A DNA stretch of 64,000 nucleotides from Frankiales bacterium (GTDB lineage Bacteria; Actinomycetota; Actinomycetes; S36-B12; CAIYMF01), in the NCBI GenBank assembly GCA_016125335.1, contig WGLY01000013.1, forward strand, positions 1-64,000, read 5' to 3'. The notes under the pieces were generated by a model. That model saw only the letters and a program-made list of their open reading frames with translations, had not been told where the DNA came from and did no database searches. Shown here one piece after another: positions 50,913 to 58,662 of the stretch (its first letter is position 1; every line of letters starts with the position of its first letter). The position numbers and the translations under genes were made by a program.

Positions 50913-52088
50913 TCACTCGCAGTCGACGCCGTCGCCGTCGGCGTCGCGGTACCACGCGTACTCCGGGTCGCGGCCGCGCACGTAGGGGCCGTAACCGGCG
51001 GCCTTGGCCGCGGCGCACGTCGCGAAGCGGGGGTCGAGGCCTGCGCCGCCCGGGCTCCCGGCAGCCGGGGCCGACGTCGTCGGCGCCGTGGCGGGGACGT
51101 CGCTCGGCAGGACGAGGGGCCCGGGCGGCAGGGCCCGCATGTCGGGGCAGGCGCCGAGCACGCGGAGGATCGCCGCCTTCTCCGCGGCAGTGACCCACAG
51201 GCCGTACTTCGCCTTCACCGCCGTCTGCCGCGCGACGTACGCGCAGCGGAAGGACCGGGCGGGCGGCAGCCAGGTGGCCGCGTCGCCGTCGCCCTTGCGC
51301 TCGTTGTTGGGACCGTCGACGGCCAGCAGGTCGAGCGGGTCGTTGGCCAGCGCCTCGCGCTTCGCCGCCGACCACGACTGCGCGCCCTTCTGCCAGGCGT
51401 CGCCCAGCGCCACCACGTGGTCGATCTGCACGCGCGAGGAGGTTCCCACGCCGCGGACGAAGGCGATGGTGGAGCCGTCGTAGGGGTCGCGCAGCGTGCC
51501 GCGCAGCACCACGCACGCGTCGCGCATCGTGAGGCCGGTCAGGTCGCGGCGCAGCACGTCGTTGCGGGTGTCGCACCCGTTGCCGTCCACATCGGCCCAC
51601 GCCGGGCCGAACATCGCCCGGCTGTATCCGGTCATGGGGGCGCGGCCCTTCACCCGCAGCGTCTCGGCCAGCGCGAGGGCGGTGCCGGCCGCGGGCGGCG
51701 TGGACGGGCGGGCCGACGTCGAGGGCGCCGCCGCGGGCGCGGACGTCGCGGGTGCTGTCGCTGCGGTGGGGGACGCCGACGCGGCTGGTGCGGTGGAGCC
51801 GGCCGGGGTGGAACCGACCGAGGCCGGGGCGAGGGCCGCGGGCGGGCCGCCGCTCGGCGCGGACGGGGGGACCGCCGCGGAGGCGGCCCCCAGGATGGCG
51901 ACGCCGCCCACGGTGGCGGCGGTGAGGGCGGCCTTGACCCGGGCCGAGCCGGGGCGCAGCCACAGGAGCACGAGACCGGGCACGACGCAGAGCACGAGCC
52001 CGGCCACCACGGCCGGCCACGACTGCCACCACGGCACCGCGGCCCGGGCACGCCGGGACCCGTCAGGTGGCGGACCCGTCCCCGACAT
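50913..52088 (-). CDS. Exported/membrane-anchored HNH-type nuclease (DUF1524/GmrSD C-terminal) with excalibur domain
   Basis: A 391-residue protein. Two hydrophobic segments (about 21-45 and 52-72) lead into a long Ala/Pro/Ser/Thr-rich linker (to ~135). The nuclease domain follows: IDHVVALGDAWQKGAQSW carries the DH of the beta-beta-alpha metal site and NNERKGDGDAATWLPP the later Asn and Lys, the pattern of the GmrSD C-terminal (DUF1524) family. The last ~40 residues form an excalibur calcium-binding motif (YRDADGDGVDCE). A surface-exposed DNase used for nutrition or competition is likely. Upstream, TAGTCT (52122-52127) may be the -10. Confidence 0.85.
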   Translation of the reverse strand: MSGTGPPPDGSRRARAAVPWWQSWPAVVAGLVLCVVPGLVLLWLRPGSARVKAALTAATVGGVAILGAASAAVPPSAPSGGPPAALAPASVGSTPAGSTAPAASASPTAATAPATSAPAAAPSTSARPSTPPAAGTALALAETLRVKGRAPMTGYSRAMFGPAWADVDGNGCDTRNDVLRRDLTGLTMRDACVVLRGTLRDPYDGSTIAFVRGVGTSSRVQIDHVVALGDAWQKGAQSWSAAKREALANDPLDLLAVDGPNNERKGDGDAATWLPPARSFRCAYVARQTAVKAKYGLWVTAAEKAAILRVLGACPDMRALPPGPLVLPSDVPATAPTTSAPAAGSPGGAGLDPRFATCAAAKAAGYGPYVRGRDPEYAWYRDADGDGVDCE

Positions 52089-52400: not shown

Positions 52401-52529
52401 TCAGCAGCACCACGTGGGGCCGGCGACGGCGTGGGTCTCGCTCGCGCTGGCCACCGACGTCGGCAGCGCCAGGGCGGCACCGAGGACGAAGGTGGCGAGG
52501 ACGACGACGATCTTGGACGTGCGGTTCAT
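52401..52529 (-). CDS. Small secreted peptide precursor (42 residues)
   Basis: A 42-residue peptide precursor not recognisable as any named family. It starts MNRTSKIVVVLATFVLG, a textbook signal peptide (two basic residues, a ~16-residue hydrophobic core), followed by a signal-peptidase site VASA|S after residue 29. Cleavage would release a 13-residue peptide, SETHAVAGPTWCC, ending in two adjacent cysteines. Support for translation is a strong ribosome site GGAGG 8 bases before the ATG and third codon positions that are G or C in all but one or two codons. It is divergent from an XRE-TPR regulator with 189 bp between starts, the layout of peptide-sensing circuits. Confidence 0.68.
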   Translation of the reverse strand: MNRTSKIVVVLATFVLGAALALPTSVASASETHAVAGPTWCC

Positions 52530-52718
52530 GAGGGTTACCTCCATGCCCTGAGCGGCGGTGCCGATCACCACCGCTTGTCAGCACAGAGTCACGGATAGTC
52601 ATAGGTTCTGTCATGCCCCTGTTCGGCCAGCGTCGGTCGTCCAGACGGCGCGTCGGTGAATCCTGAACAACCGTTTACGTTCGTGGTTGACTGCGCCCAT
52701 GACTGACGGGCGCACCGC
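52530..52718. promoter_or_regulatory. Divergent promoter region of peptide and XRE-TPR genes
   Basis: A 189-bp region, AT-richer than its surroundings. On the minus strand (peptide side) TGAC repeats run TGAC-N8-TGACT then TGACT again (52591-52613), close to the spacing of the 26-bp motif found at 54.4-55.7 kb but lacking its final GTCA. On the plus strand (regulator side) lie TTTACG and TTGACT as -35-like hexamers (near 52674 and 52687) and an imperfect inverted repeat AACAACCG/CGTGGTTG. Binding by the adjacent regulator is inferred, not shown. Confidence 0.5.
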
Positions 52719-54185
52719 GTGACCGCGCGCGCCGGCGTACGGCCGGGCGCGACCAGCTCCGAGGCGGAGACCTTCGGCGACCGGCTGCGCCGGCTGCGCG
52801 AGGAGGCCGGGCTCACCCAGTCCGCGCTGGCCGGCGACCGGCTGCACCCCAGCTACGTGAGCCTGCTCGAGGCGGGCCGGCGCTCCCCCACCCGCGAGTC
52901 CGTCGAGGTGCTCGCCCAGCGTCTGGGCATCACGCCGGCCCAGCTGCTCGGCGAGGTGGACGCCGCGTGGGAGACGCCGCTGGCGCTGGCCGAGGCTGCG
53001 CTGGGCCTGGGCAAGACCGGCGACGCCCTGGACCTGCTCGAGCCGCACGTGAGTGCCGTGACGGTCGGGTCCGTCGCCGGGGGCGGCCTGTACCACCGCC
53101 TGGGGCTTGCCTACGCCACCGCGCTGGAGCGGTCGGGGCGTCCGGGCGATGCCGTCCCTGTGCTGGAGACACTCGCTGCCGGGATCGAGGCCGCCCACGG
53201 GGCGCTGCCCTGGCTGCCGACCACGGTCGCGCTGGTCCGCTGCTACCGCGACTCCGGCGACCTGGCCCGCGCGATCGACGTCGGCGAGGCGGCGCGCGCC
53301 CGGTGCGCGGGCGTCCTCGCGGCCGACCACCAGGGGCACGCGGCGCTGGTCTCGACCCTGGCCAGCGCGTACGGCGAGCGCGGCGACCTGCTGCGCGCCC
53401 AGATCCTGCTCGACGAGCTGCTCGAGCGACCCGCGGCCGGCACGGACCTCGACGAGCATGCCTGTGCGCTGTGGAACCGCTCCATCGTGGCGGCGGAACG
53501 AGGCGACGCGGTGGCCGCTCTGGACTTGTCGGAGCAGGCGTCCACGCTGCTCGGCCTCGGCAACAACCTGCGGGCGCGCGCCCTTCTCCAGGTGTCGAGA
53601 GCGTGGATCCAGCTCGCCCAGCGGCCGCCGCAGGCGGAGGAGGCGCGCGACGCGCTGCGCGAGGCGATGCCCCACGTCCGCCAGCACGCCGGCGCCATGG
53701 GGATCGCGAGTGCAGAGACCGAGCTGGCCCGCGCCGAGCTGCTGCTCGGCCGGCCCGAGGTGGCGCGCCGCCACGCGACGAGCGCGCTCACCCGCCTCGG
53801 CGACGACTACCCCATCGAGCGGGCGCGGGCCCTCGTGGCGCTCGGCGCCGCGGTGCTCGAGCTCACCGACCGGACCGAAGGGACCGACCTGCTGGAGGAG
53901 GCCGCCGGCCTGCTGCGGGCGGCGCGCGCCGGCCGGCAGTGCGCCGTGGTGTGGCGCCAGCTCTGCGAGGTCTACCGGTCCCTCGGCGACTTCGAGCGCG
54001 CGATGGCGGCCAGCGACCGCGCCCTGGACTGCGCGGGCCTGGCCCGCGAGGCCGTCGTGGACGTGACGGCGTCGGCGGCCCGCACGGGGCACCGGCGCCG
54101 CTCCTCCACCGGCTCGCCGACGGGCGCCGTCGGTGGCCGCCCGGGCACGCGGGCCCGCACGGCCGACGCCGTGCTCGCCCGCTGA
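52719..54185 (+). CDS. XRE-family regulator with TPR-like C-terminal domain
   Basis: A 488-residue cytosolic regulator. Residues ~19-80 are a cro/C1-type helix-turn-helix (FGDRLRRLREEAGLTQSALA, LHPSYVSLLEAGRRSPTRES, VEVLAQRLGI). From ~90 to ~440 the chain is all-helical with repeating 35-40-residue units of tetratricopeptide type (for example ALAEAALGLGKTGDALDLLE, LASAYGERGDLLRAQILLDEL, VYRSLGDFERAMAASDRALD). The tail is a basic, disordered stretch. An XRE domain on a TPR superhelix is the architecture of RRNPP peptide sensors, though XRE-TPR proteins also have other roles. The divergent secreted peptide gene is the natural ligand candidate. Start: GTG 52719. Confidence 0.85.
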   Translation: MTARAGVRPGATSSEAETFGDRLRRLREEAGLTQSALAGDRLHPSYVSLLEAGRRSPTRESVEVLAQRLGITPAQLLGEVDAAWETPLALAEAALGLGKTGDALDLLEPHVSAVTVGSVAGGGLYHRLGLAYATALERSGRPGDAVPVLETLAAGIEAAHGALPWLPTTVALVRCYRDSGDLARAIDVGEAARARCAGVLAADHQGHAALVSTLASAYGERGDLLRAQILLDELLERPAAGTDLDEHACALWNRSIVAAERGDAVAALDLSEQASTLLGLGNNLRARALLQVSRAWIQLAQRPPQAEEARDALREAMPHVRQHAGAMGIASAETELARAELLLGRPEVARRHATSALTRLGDDYPIERARALVALGAAVLELTDRTEGTDLLEEAAGLLRAARAGRQCAVVWRQLCEVYRSLGDFERAMAASDRALDCAGLAREAVVDVTASAARTGHRRRSSTGSPTGAVGGRPGTRARTADAVLAR

Positions 54186-55938: not shown

Positions 55939-58662
55939 TCATGCCGGCGCCGTGGCGTCCCCGCCGAGCAGGCCCTCGCGCCGCAGCGCCACCGCGAGGC
56001 CGCCTCGCGACCGCACCGCGAGCTTCCGGAAGACGTTGCCCAGGTGGTACTCCACCGTCTTGACCGACACGAACAGGGCCGCAGCCACCTCGGCGTTGGT
56101 GCCCCCCTCGGTGACGGCGAGGGCGACGCGCAGCTCCTGAGGGGTGAGGACCCGGTCGCGGGAGGGACCGTCCCGCCCCGCTGCGCCGGCCGCCGGCCGA
56201 CCACCGGCCGCCGCCAGCTCGCGCCGGGCCCGCTCGACCCACGGCTGGGTGCGCGTCCGCTCGAACCCCTCGAGCGCCCGGCGCAGCGGGTCACGCGCGC
56301 GGGACGGCCGCTGCGTGCGGCGCAGGTGCTCGCCGAGGAGCAGCTCGGTCCGCGCCGTCTCGAAGACCTCCTGCGTCTCGGCGAAGCGCTCGAGCGCCTG
56401 CGCGTACTCCGTGTCGGCGTCGCCCAGACCGGACACTGCGCGGGCCCGGTGCACGAGGGCGGTCCCCTGCGGGTCGTGGACGCCGTGGAGCCGTCGGGCC
56501 AGGTCCTCCGCGGCCTGCCGTGCCTCGGCGACGCGCCCGAGCGCAGCGCGCACCTCGGCGAGGTCGGCGAGCCCGAGCGCCACCGCGTCGCGCGCCCCGC
56601 GCCCGACGTAGGGCCGGGTCGCCAACGGCGCGAGCAGCTCGGCGGCCTCCTCGAGGCGGCCGAGGCCGAGCGCGAGCACACCGCGCGCCTCGGACACCCA
56701 GTCCTGCTGCCAGGGGGAGGCGCCGCGCCGGGCGAAGTCGTCGCGGGCGGCCTCGACGGCCTGCTCGACCCGCACCTCGTGGCCCTGGCACGCCAGCAGG
56801 CTGGCCAGGCGAGACCACTCGACGCCGCTCGGCTCGCCCGTGGCGGTGCGCAGCTCGATCGCCTCGGCCAGCATGGCCTCCGCGCGCGCCCAGTCCCCCT
56901 CCCTGCGGTCGCGCTCGGCGGAGAAGAACGCCGCCACGGCCACGAGCTCGGGCTGTCCGGACGCGCGCAGGGCGCGGTCGAGGCTGCGCATCCGCCGGTC
57001 GTGCTCCGCGTCGTCCCCCAGCCAGCCGGCCACCGTGGCCCAGTCGACCGCGCGCTCGGGCGGCAGGGACGCGGGATCCACGTCGGCGGACCGGGCCTGC
57101 GCCTCGCGCAGCAGCGGGACCCCGCGGTGGTGACGGCCGAGGAAGGTGAACGCCATCCCCAGGGCGGCGGTCGCCAGCCACGACGAGCCGCCGAGCCGCT
57201 CGGCCTCGGCACCGACGGCCAGCTCCTCGAGCCTGGCCACGTCCGAGGCGTGGATCGCCGCCCACACCGACGCGACGCTGCTGCGCAGCGCCAGGGGCTC
57301 CGGCAGGTCGAGGTGGTCGAGCTGGCGGGTGAGCTCGACGAGCTGCGCCGGGTCGGCCCGCTCGTCGGCGTCCACCCGCACCATCACGCAGCGGGCCAGC
57401 AGCACGGGCTCCTGTGTGGAGGCCTGCACCTGCTCGGCGAGCTCGACGGCGCGCAGGCCCACGGAGCACTCGGCCGCCAGCACCCGCAGCCGGTCCCGCT
57501 GCGCCGGGCCGGAGGCGAGGCGCGCGCCGGCGAGCGCGAGCGCCGCAGCCGACGGGCCCGGGCGCTCGGCCGCCGCGACCTCGGCGAGGCGGACGAGCGC
57601 CTCGGCGAGGTGCTCGTCCGGACCGGTCGCGGCCAGCGCGAGGTGCCGCACCGCGAGCTCCTCCTCGTCGCGCGCACGCAGCACTTCGCCGAGCGCGGCG
57701 TGCGCGGCGCGCCGTTGCGCCGGGTCCGCGGCGGAGTGCACCGAGGCCCGCGCCAACGGGTGCACGAACTGCGGCACCGCACCCAGCCGCACCAGGCCGG
57801 TGCTCTCGGCGCGCTCCCACAGCCCGGCGCCCAGCCCGAGCCGCTCGCGGGCCTCGGACACCAGCGTCGGGTCCGTGCCGTCGTCGGCCGCGAGCAGCAC
57901 CAGCAGCCGGCGGGCTGGCTCCTCCAGCGAGGCGAAGCCTTGCGCGTAGCGACTCTGCACCGCGTCGCTCACAGGCAGTGGCTCGGGCAGCGGGTCGCGG
58001 CCGAGCAGCTCGTCCTCGGTGAGCAGCCGCCCCACCTCCACCAGCGGCAGCGGCACGTGCCCCAGCGCGTCGGCCACCTCGTCCGCGCGGGTGGTCGTCA
58101 TCGCCGGGAACCGCGCGCGCAGCAGCTCGCGGCTCGCCTCCCGGTCGAGCGGGGGCACCTCGGTCGCTGGGAACGCCTCGAGGCTACCGAGGTCGCCGGG
58201 ACGCGACGACAGCACCATCGCCACCGGGTCGGCGAGCAGCCGGCGGGCCGCGAAGCCGAGCGCCTGCCGGGTCGCGACGTCGAGCCACTGGGCGTCGTCG
58301 ACCGTGACCAGGAGCGGCTGTTCGCGGCTGGCGGCCACGAGCGCATCGAGCACCGCGTGCACCGCGGTGTCGGCGGGATCGGCGTCGAGCAGGCGCAGCA
58401 GCAGGCCTGTCCCGGCGGCGGTGATCGCCGACTCGGCCTCAACCGCGACCAGGCGGACGACGCGCATCCCCGCCGCGACCGCCTGCTCGGCGGCCCAGTC
58501 CAGGAGCGCGGTCTTGCCCAGCCCGGGCTCGCCCACCAGCAGGAGGGAGGCCGACCGGCCCGTGCGGGCCCACGCCAGCACGGCGTCCAGCGCTGCGCAC
58601 TGAGGCGCACGACCCACGAGCACACCCGGATGGTGGCACGGCTCGAGAACCTGGGGATTCAC
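55939..58662 (-). CDS. Large ATP-binding LuxR-family (LAL/MalT-like) regulator
   Basis: A 907-residue regulator. The N-terminal AAA/STAND ATPase has Walker A VGEPGLGKTALLDWA near residue 45 and Walker B LLVTVDDAQWLD near 120. A long helical-repeat region, probably TPR-like, occupies ~330-830. The C-terminal LuxR helix-turn-helix is LTPQELRVALAVTEGGTNAEVAAALFVSVKTVEYHLGNVFRKL. LAL proteins activate transcription after binding ATP and an inducer, often in secondary metabolism or sugar use. The gene is divergent from a secreted protein gene with a palindrome between; activation of that gene is possible. The start (GTG 58662) lacks a clear ribosome site. Confidence 0.92.
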   Translation of the reverse strand: MNPQVLEPCHHPGVLVGRAPQCAALDAVLAWARTGRSASLLLVGEPGLGKTALLDWAAEQAVAAGMRVVRLVAVEAESAITAAGTGLLLRLLDADPADTAVHAVLDALVAASREQPLLVTVDDAQWLDVATRQALGFAARRLLADPVAMVLSSRPGDLGSLEAFPATEVPPLDREASRELLRARFPAMTTTRADEVADALGHVPLPLVEVGRLLTEDELLGRDPLPEPLPVSDAVQSRYAQGFASLEEPARRLLVLLAADDGTDPTLVSEARERLGLGAGLWERAESTGLVRLGAVPQFVHPLARASVHSAADPAQRRAAHAALGEVLRARDEEELAVRHLALAATGPDEHLAEALVRLAEVAAAERPGPSAAALALAGARLASGPAQRDRLRVLAAECSVGLRAVELAEQVQASTQEPVLLARCVMVRVDADERADPAQLVELTRQLDHLDLPEPLALRSSVASVWAAIHASDVARLEELAVGAEAERLGGSSWLATAALGMAFTFLGRHHRGVPLLREAQARSADVDPASLPPERAVDWATVAGWLGDDAEHDRRMRSLDRALRASGQPELVAVAAFFSAERDRREGDWARAEAMLAEAIELRTATGEPSGVEWSRLASLLACQGHEVRVEQAVEAARDDFARRGASPWQQDWVSEARGVLALGLGRLEEAAELLAPLATRPYVGRGARDAVALGLADLAEVRAALGRVAEARQAAEDLARRLHGVHDPQGTALVHRARAVSGLGDADTEYAQALERFAETQEVFETARTELLLGEHLRRTQRPSRARDPLRRALEGFERTRTQPWVERARRELAAAGGRPAAGAAGRDGPSRDRVLTPQELRVALAVTEGGTNAEVAAALFVSVKTVEYHLGNVFRKLAVRSRGGLAVALRREGLLGGDATAPA

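Follow-up and report, generated by a model that had tools for sequence, protein, structure and literature searches.

A short Cys-Cys propeptide gene beside an XRE-TPR regulator gene recurs across actinobacteria and probably forms an RRNPP-like peptide-signalling pair

In the PlcR-PapR system of the Bacillus cereus group, a receptor consisting of an HTH and a TPR domain is paired with a secreted propeptide, the C-terminal end of which is the signal. ComR-ComS/XIP and Rgg-SHP of the streptococci likewise combine an XRE HTH + TPR receptor with an adjacent short propeptide, the XIP peptides having double-Trp ends, and Rap proteins have no HTH. In the available parts of the sources, re-imported pheromones with TPR receptors are described for Bacillota (PMC9765709, PMC10075063), Actinomycetota are credited with small-molecule signals (PMC10075063), and gamma-butyrolactones are given as signals of Streptomyces (PMC13220807). 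The actinobacterial pair reported here was not described among the matches listed in our literature search, the scope of which stopped short of subscription papers and preprints.

In this study, a locus in a window of 64,000 nucleotides (the whole stretch of DNA that was analysed) was compared with these systems. The source genome comprises 3.93 Mb in 41 contigs. The locus has the following features.

52401-52529, minus strand: gene for a 42-residue, presumably secreted propeptide, MNRTSKIVVVLATFVLGAALALPTSVASASETHAVAGPTWCC, a signal-like frame in translation, with ATG start and stop codon at 52401-52403
52443-52529, minus strand: predicted signal peptide, 29 residues, cleavage after ASA, from the sequence layout
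52404-52442, minus strand: predicted mature peptide SETHAVAGPTWCC, 13 residues, from the translation
52404-52409, minus strand: terminal Cys-Cys codons, a recurring element of the peptides of class Actinomycetes
52538-52542, minus strand: ribosome-binding site GGAGG of the propeptide gene
52577-52707: operator-like region with seven GTCA/TGAC half-sites, at 52577, 52588, 52598, 52610, 52688, 52700 and 52704
52597-52613: left arm of an imperfect inverted repeat, 17 nt, 76% complementary
52688-52704: right arm of this repeat, 74 nt from the left arm
52719-54185, plus strand: XRE-TPR regulator, 488 residues, GTG start, proposed cytoplasmic pheromone receptor (translation, Pfam, AlphaFold2, profiles)
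52773-52943, plus strand: Cro/C1-type HTH, residues 19-75 (Pfam HTH_31, 2.2e-11)
52956-54044, plus strand: TPR superhelix, residues 80-442, proposed peptide-binding groove (AlphaFold2 model, structure comparison)

The short gene had been read from the DNA alone as having a strong ribosome site and a signal peptide, and both were found again: GGAGG lies eight bases before the ATG, and the N-terminus follows the basic, hydrophobic and ASA order of signal peptides, as judged from its layout. The tail is of the GPxxCC type common to the same-genus loci L005, L008 and L009. No curated family names the window peptide in a scan of Pfam and NCBIfam, and no Pfam family names seven other peptides of the family in a scan of Pfam. 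A lipoprotein reading was rejected; the Cys pair is C-terminal and does not occupy the position after a lipobox. A simple consensus scan of the window locus returned no sigma-70 or terminator sites.

The 488-residue protein is, as had been proposed, a cro/C1 HTH joined to a TPR-like superhelix. Besides HTH_31, Pfam gave a TPR_12 match (1.9e-11), and the AlphaFold2 model is all helical (mean pLDDT 87.4), with residues 80-442 aligning with TPR superhelices in structure comparison. The joining of TPR domain to XRE HTH, as in most RRNPP receptors, was seen by Pfam for the window protein and by AlphaFold2 for the window and Kineosporia models. Matches of the regulator in Pfam were to generic HTH and TPR families only, and those in NCBIfam were all below cut-off. 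The NsdA family (NCBIfam NF053720) scored 15.6 to 34.7 bits to six relatives scanned and 12.7 bits to the window protein, far under its curated cut-off of 75 bits. The listed Pfam and NCBIfam matches of the regulators included neither an RNPP nor an Rgg C-terminal family.

In profile comparison, PlcR (2qfc) matched profile A3 at 2.1e-14, collinear over the HTH and the first TPRs, with generic TPR proteins scoring close; among natural PDB proteins it ranked first, with four designed TPR proteins placed above it. With profile A2, PlcR scored 6.3e-10 and kinesin light chains scored higher. ComR was also a PDB match to the regulator profiles, the listed matches covering the HTH only. By fold, the window model shares the TPR superhelix with the receptors of Rap-Phr and NprR-NprX: Rap made up seven of the first eight matches (Z 25.1 to 26.4), and APC/C (25.1), LGN (24.2) and NprR (22.8) were also found. 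For the Kineosporia model, LGN/Pins filled the first eleven places (up to 25.8) and Rap reached 23.4, not above these unrelated TPR proteins. The fold thus points to a peptide-binding type of TPR superhelix and does not single out RRNPP receptors.

The pair is like PlcR-PapR in that an HTH + TPR receptor is coupled with a short propeptide. It differs in phylum, in receptor length (293 residues in the PlcR chain, mostly about 430-490 in the actinobacterial regulators), and in gene arrangement, the actinobacterial peptide gene being usually divergent or convergent. PapR7 is ADLPFEF in the part of the source available, whereas the actinobacterial peptides have a terminal CC or a W-P core. The Trp-Trp ends of the ComR-ComS/XIP system and the Cys-Cys ends here form a formal parallel.

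A sample of 394 genomes from across the class contained relatives of the regulator in 85, and named records gave 35 loci with such relatives, four of which were short HTH-only matches in proteobacteria. Within the window's genus, a divergent signal-like frame with a Cys-Cys end lies about as far from the regulator in L005, L008 and L009 as it does in the window, and the more distant L007 (named twin L033) has one ending in NWPKCC. No such frame accompanies the paralogues L002, L003 and L006 of this genus, L002 (G000:C6:28044-29429) being an XRE-TPR protein of the window's own genome, 56% identical to the window regulator, with no recognisable peptide gene nearby. L137 of this genus also has no recognisable peptide beside the regulator, and locus L004 ends at a contig boundary.

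The Cys-Cys end was first noticed in the window's genus and afterwards tested outside it. A strict filter was applied to distinct regulators with a profile score of at least 100, scores under 100 being left out; it required a signal-like frame, identified by a hydropathy rule, with CC within the last ten residues and no more than 600 bases upstream or 900 bases downstream. Such a frame stood beside 62 of the 109 regulators. When each genus was represented by a single regulator, 24 of 45 passed. It had been expected that the small frame would be kept where relatives keep the regulator; this held in most lineages and for every locus of a fresh sample (27/27, see below), but 47 of the 109 regulators failed the strict filter. 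Among the families, the strict counts were, for example, f25 (19/21), f32 (9/12), f19 (5/5), f31 (4/4), f1 (4/7), f22 (4/17), Streptomycetaceae (4/16), Cellulomonas (0/2), f24 (0/2) and f40 (0/2). In a check whether f25 resembles Frankia, nifH was over the cut-off in 0 of 12, and the best match to one Micromonospora genome was 27% identical (E 4.8e-10), so that neither comparison assigned the family. Relaxed filters added nine regulators (L016, L018, L019, L020, L022, L025, L026, L134 and L136); under these rules loci of Streptomyces, Kitasatospora and Streptacidiphilus qualified through downstream peptides with tails of the kind DIPLCC. Culturable strains with the pair include Kineosporia sp. 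and Streptomyces goshikiensis. The regulators with no recognisable peptide beside them include those of Streptomyces loci L017, L023, L030 and L038 and of a second f22 paralogue clade.

The divergent arrangement of the window recurred in 47 of the strict frames; the others were adjacent in other ways, 19 being convergent and 1 upstream on the same strand. Including same-strand genes downstream of the regulator, the place of the peptide gene varies, and in a quick tree it moved several times while CC was retained; the tree was made by a fast method and has long branches, so that only its broad picture counts.

Signal-like frames near the regulator were compared with those far from it at the same loci. 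The last two residues were CC in 57 of 121 near frames and in 2 of 170 far frames, and CC lay within the last ten residues in 67 of 121 and 4 of 170, respectively; Fisher's p is nominal here because the loci are related. The next commonest ending of near frames after CC was seen 3 times. As for far CC frames, that of L095 looks like a displaced member of the family, that of L032 adjoins another regulator of its locus, that of L028 may adjoin another regulator, and that of L133 is probably due to chance.

A fresh sample was drawn from the order holding f22, where a strong receptor was present in 133 of 200 genomes. The best 30 loci by score were taken, a non-random choice, and 27 of them came from genomes new to the analysis; 15 of these 27 belong to nine genera not met earlier. 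Frames were listed whether they ended in CC or otherwise, and all 27 fresh loci had a divergent signal-like frame ending in CC, the peptide sequence being identical with that of the earlier locus L092 at two of them. The finding of an adjacent signal-peptide frame in many relatives that keep the regulator supports the two-gene pheromone and receptor proposed in the sequence-only reading. The terminal Cys-Cys, which had been called unusual for RRNPP peptides, is no local oddity, being a hallmark of the family in class Actinomycetes.

Other tails were found in other lineages. The wider profile A3 matched in 39 of 396 genomes of a sample of the phylum, the window's class included. Twenty loci from other classes were inspected with longer flanks, and at 12 of them a propeptide 26-35 residues long is encoded divergently, its end region containing [FWY]P or CC; the tails are FPWGGT, GYPWPK, SFPGP, GFPWPK, KWPWG, NWPHVP, NWPHH, NWPKH, TWPHC, APWPPCC, APWPHCC and APFPGCCG. 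At L223, L224 and L225 of family f86, a short hydrophobic frame with (W/M)SDG near its end lies downstream on the same strand, possibly a third type of signal, and nothing was recognised at 5 of the 20 loci. At the other-class loci, [FWY]P or CC occurred within the last nine residues of 13 of 20 near frames (one spurious, L221) and of 0 of 21 far frames, a descriptive count since the motif was picked after viewing the sequences. Within class Actinomycetes, the divergent peptides of four f22 regulators lack CC and terminate in GWGWPG, GWNHPG, AWNGPW and PWQWPI.

Tandem cores were present in three precursors of the class adjoining distant XRE-TPR relatives, namely DIEWP twice (L119), DISWP three times (L120) and TGNWPDP twice (L123); the filter used for these was loose, requiring W-P or CC but not a ribosome site. 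Similarly, Rap-Phr systems can have several pheromones in one precursor, according to the part of the source available (PMC11343458).

Variation was followed in genus g75, in which the regulator was present in 12 of 12 genomes and the peptide at 12 of 12 loci read; the peptides were located through their CC stop, and the telling point is that all 12 loci had one. Over the whole frame, pN/pS (all pairs of 12 sequences, uncorrected) was 0.52; the signal peptide by itself gave 0.48 and the mature body 0.73. The corresponding values in g100, from four sequences of equal length, were 0.24, 0.21 and 0.36. The propeptide frame is thus under modest purifying selection and its body is diverse. It had been predicted that the mature part would be the most constrained; the body values, higher than those of the signal peptide in both sets, contradict this. 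The Cys pair is the sole part of the mature peptide kept throughout g75, its codons showing 22 synonymous and 0 non-synonymous pair differences. Over 61 distinct CC peptides of the class, entropy was 2.9 to 3.7 bits at positions -3 to -12, and it was zero at the last two positions because frames had been chosen for their CC end. A fixed end with a variable body is the pattern expected for pheromones that differ between species.

At g75 loci L080, L081, L084 and L124, a second signal-like frame ending in CC (tails such as GGSDFCC) lies downstream in convergent orientation; the divergent and convergent frames are candidates for two signals of one receptor.

GTCA/TGAC, the half-site of the operator-like region, was the top enriched tetramer in the 120 bases upstream of the peptide genes, divergent and convergent. 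For these counts, 18 f25 loci had been dropped beforehand. Divergent peptide promoters contained 90 half-sites against about 43 expected (32 regions), and convergent ones 37 against 15 (15 regions); three or more were present in 20 of the 32 and 7 of the 15 regions, L024 and L037 being among the peptide promoters with one half-site or none. The density per kb was 24.2 in divergent, 21.3 in convergent and 10.4 in 93 control promoter gaps, the last also mildly enriched (111 vs 78 expected), an effect that a -35 box would produce. Inverted pairs of half-sites numbered 31 against 3.6 expected in divergent regions (in 15 of the 32), 4 against 0.9 in convergent regions and 8 against 4.2 in the controls. 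The enrichment persisted when the bases near the regulator start were left out, which retained 20 of the 32 divergent regions; densities were then 34-37 per kb in these and 24-25 per kb in convergent regions. Upstream of regulators without a peptide, 69 half-sites were seen against 39 expected (44 regions); the density, about 13 per kb, is little above the control and therefore neither supports nor excludes autoregulation there. Of 8 g75 genomes, 7 have the palindrome CTGTCATGACAG at the locus, and two of them contain one more copy; the palindrome is weak as evidence of an operator because it overlaps the regulator start codon in g75.

The pair is surrounded in the window by genes for an M20 peptidase, a universal stress protein, a GmrSD_C/Excalibur protein and a LuxR-type AAA regulator. 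The GmrSD_C + Excalibur protein (50913-52088, minus strand) is next to the peptide gene; the 907-residue AAA + LuxR-type regulator (55939-58662, minus strand), near the pair, has a weak TPR match. The earlier remark that no importer gene is adjacent agrees with a scan of seven neighbouring frames at the window locus, none of which encodes one. Clustering of 57 loci revealed no importer or protease gene conserved beside the pair and no conserved third gene: regulator aside, genes of at least 100 residues clustered in at most 14 of the 57 loci, the largest such cluster being an ABC ATPase at varying places (14/57). The window's own genome has five SBP_bac_5 (oligopeptide-binding) genes over cut-off, which fits an oligopeptide importer being available in the cell, none of them linked to the locus; the family is generic, being also present in 11 of 14 control genomes. 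Three SBP_bac_5 genes at G000:C13:67731-88700, on the window's contig beyond the window, are candidate importer genes.

The pair most likely works like an RRNPP system, and we consider it probable that the two genes form a self-contained module in which a secreted and re-imported peptide is sensed by the XRE-TPR protein. Its linkage across actinobacteria suggests an undescribed peptide-signalling system outside Bacillota. The steps from export and maturation to import and binding, as well as the DNA target, the sign of regulation and the dependence on cell density, are inferred along the following lines. The propeptide would be exported by the Sec route, cut after the signal peptide and perhaps trimmed further, so that a short peptide ending in Cys-Cys would accumulate outside the cell. 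Uptake would be via an oligopeptide ABC transporter encoded elsewhere, after which the peptide would bind in the concave groove of the divergently encoded XRE-TPR protein. This protein would bind the GTCA/TGAC half-sites in the shared promoter region and thereby control the propeptide gene at the least, and probably its own gene too. Specificity may be set by the variable residues ahead of CC (in other lineages, those flanking W-P), with CC serving as a fixed anchor or chemical handle.

A broader proposal is more tentative, and we hold it somewhat doubtful: that the peptides are an undescribed pheromone class of the whole phylum with its own XRE-TPR receptors, in which the vicinal thiols are put to chemical use and report redox or metal state. 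The thiols could form a disulfide or engage a metal or a receptor thiol, possibly the Cys at position 175, which is common to 86 of 105 receptors.

A vicinal Cys pair is also a plausible metal or redox group by itself, and this favours a different reading, in which the CC peptide acts as a small secreted effector that binds metal or thiols or is antimicrobial; it would be an output controlled by the XRE-TPR protein and not the signal, the protein itself sensing another ligand. Half-sites at the peptide promoter fit a plain target gene, and some regulators have no peptide nearby. We nevertheless regard an effector as unlikely: Cys is dispensable elsewhere (tails NWPHH, FPWPK and GWGWPG), the peptide body changes faster than the signal peptide in g75 and g100, three precursors have tandem W-P cores, and recurrent pairing with one receptor family is the pattern of a pheromone. 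Far less probable is action inside the producing cell, with the peptide as a membrane-tethered or intracellular antagonist of the regulator in a cell-autonomous feedback; by eye, a hydrophilic tail comes after an Ala-rich AxA-like stretch of the signal peptide in many precursors of class Actinomycetes, although some of those from other classes, with 26-30 residues, are hydrophobic almost up to the tail. Short leaders with Cys codons occur in actinobacteria, and the frame might accordingly be an attenuator leader, its Cys codons sensing cysteine supply during translation; this was rejected as highly improbable, since frames of several families share the signal-like N-terminus, some tails have W-P and no Cys, most copies of the gene lie divergent from, convergent to or downstream of the regulator and not directly upstream, and no common gene of at least 100 residues follows the frame in the 57 loci clustered. 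A chance frame in GC-rich DNA, where open reading frames are abundant in the window, was rejected as having next to no probability in view of the near/far contrast (57/121 vs 2/170), the 27 of 27 fresh loci and the pN/pS below 1.

If the pheromone and receptor reading is true, one phylum, that of the main antibiotic producers, gains a common peptide language readable from genomes, and the predicted signals can be synthesised and tested. It would provide a candidate ligand class for actinomycete oligopeptide importers such as BldK, for which we know of no identified signals, and a Cys-Cys signal chemistry, of which we know no case among RRNPP peptides.

Matches were also found in mobile elements. 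In IMG/VR there were 18, of HTH length or little more. The unannotated phage record MT836207.1 (L156, Bacteriophage sp., human faeces) has a truncated regulator relative, H7, at its end, with no CC frame upstream in the stretch read; the record may be bacterial DNA. Plasmid matches were in six Streptomyces records. The annotation of the S. goshikiensis plasmid gives the CC peptide as a hypothetical protein, and another small signal-like hypothetical protein (L157:5932-6144) is encoded directly after the CC peptide gene.
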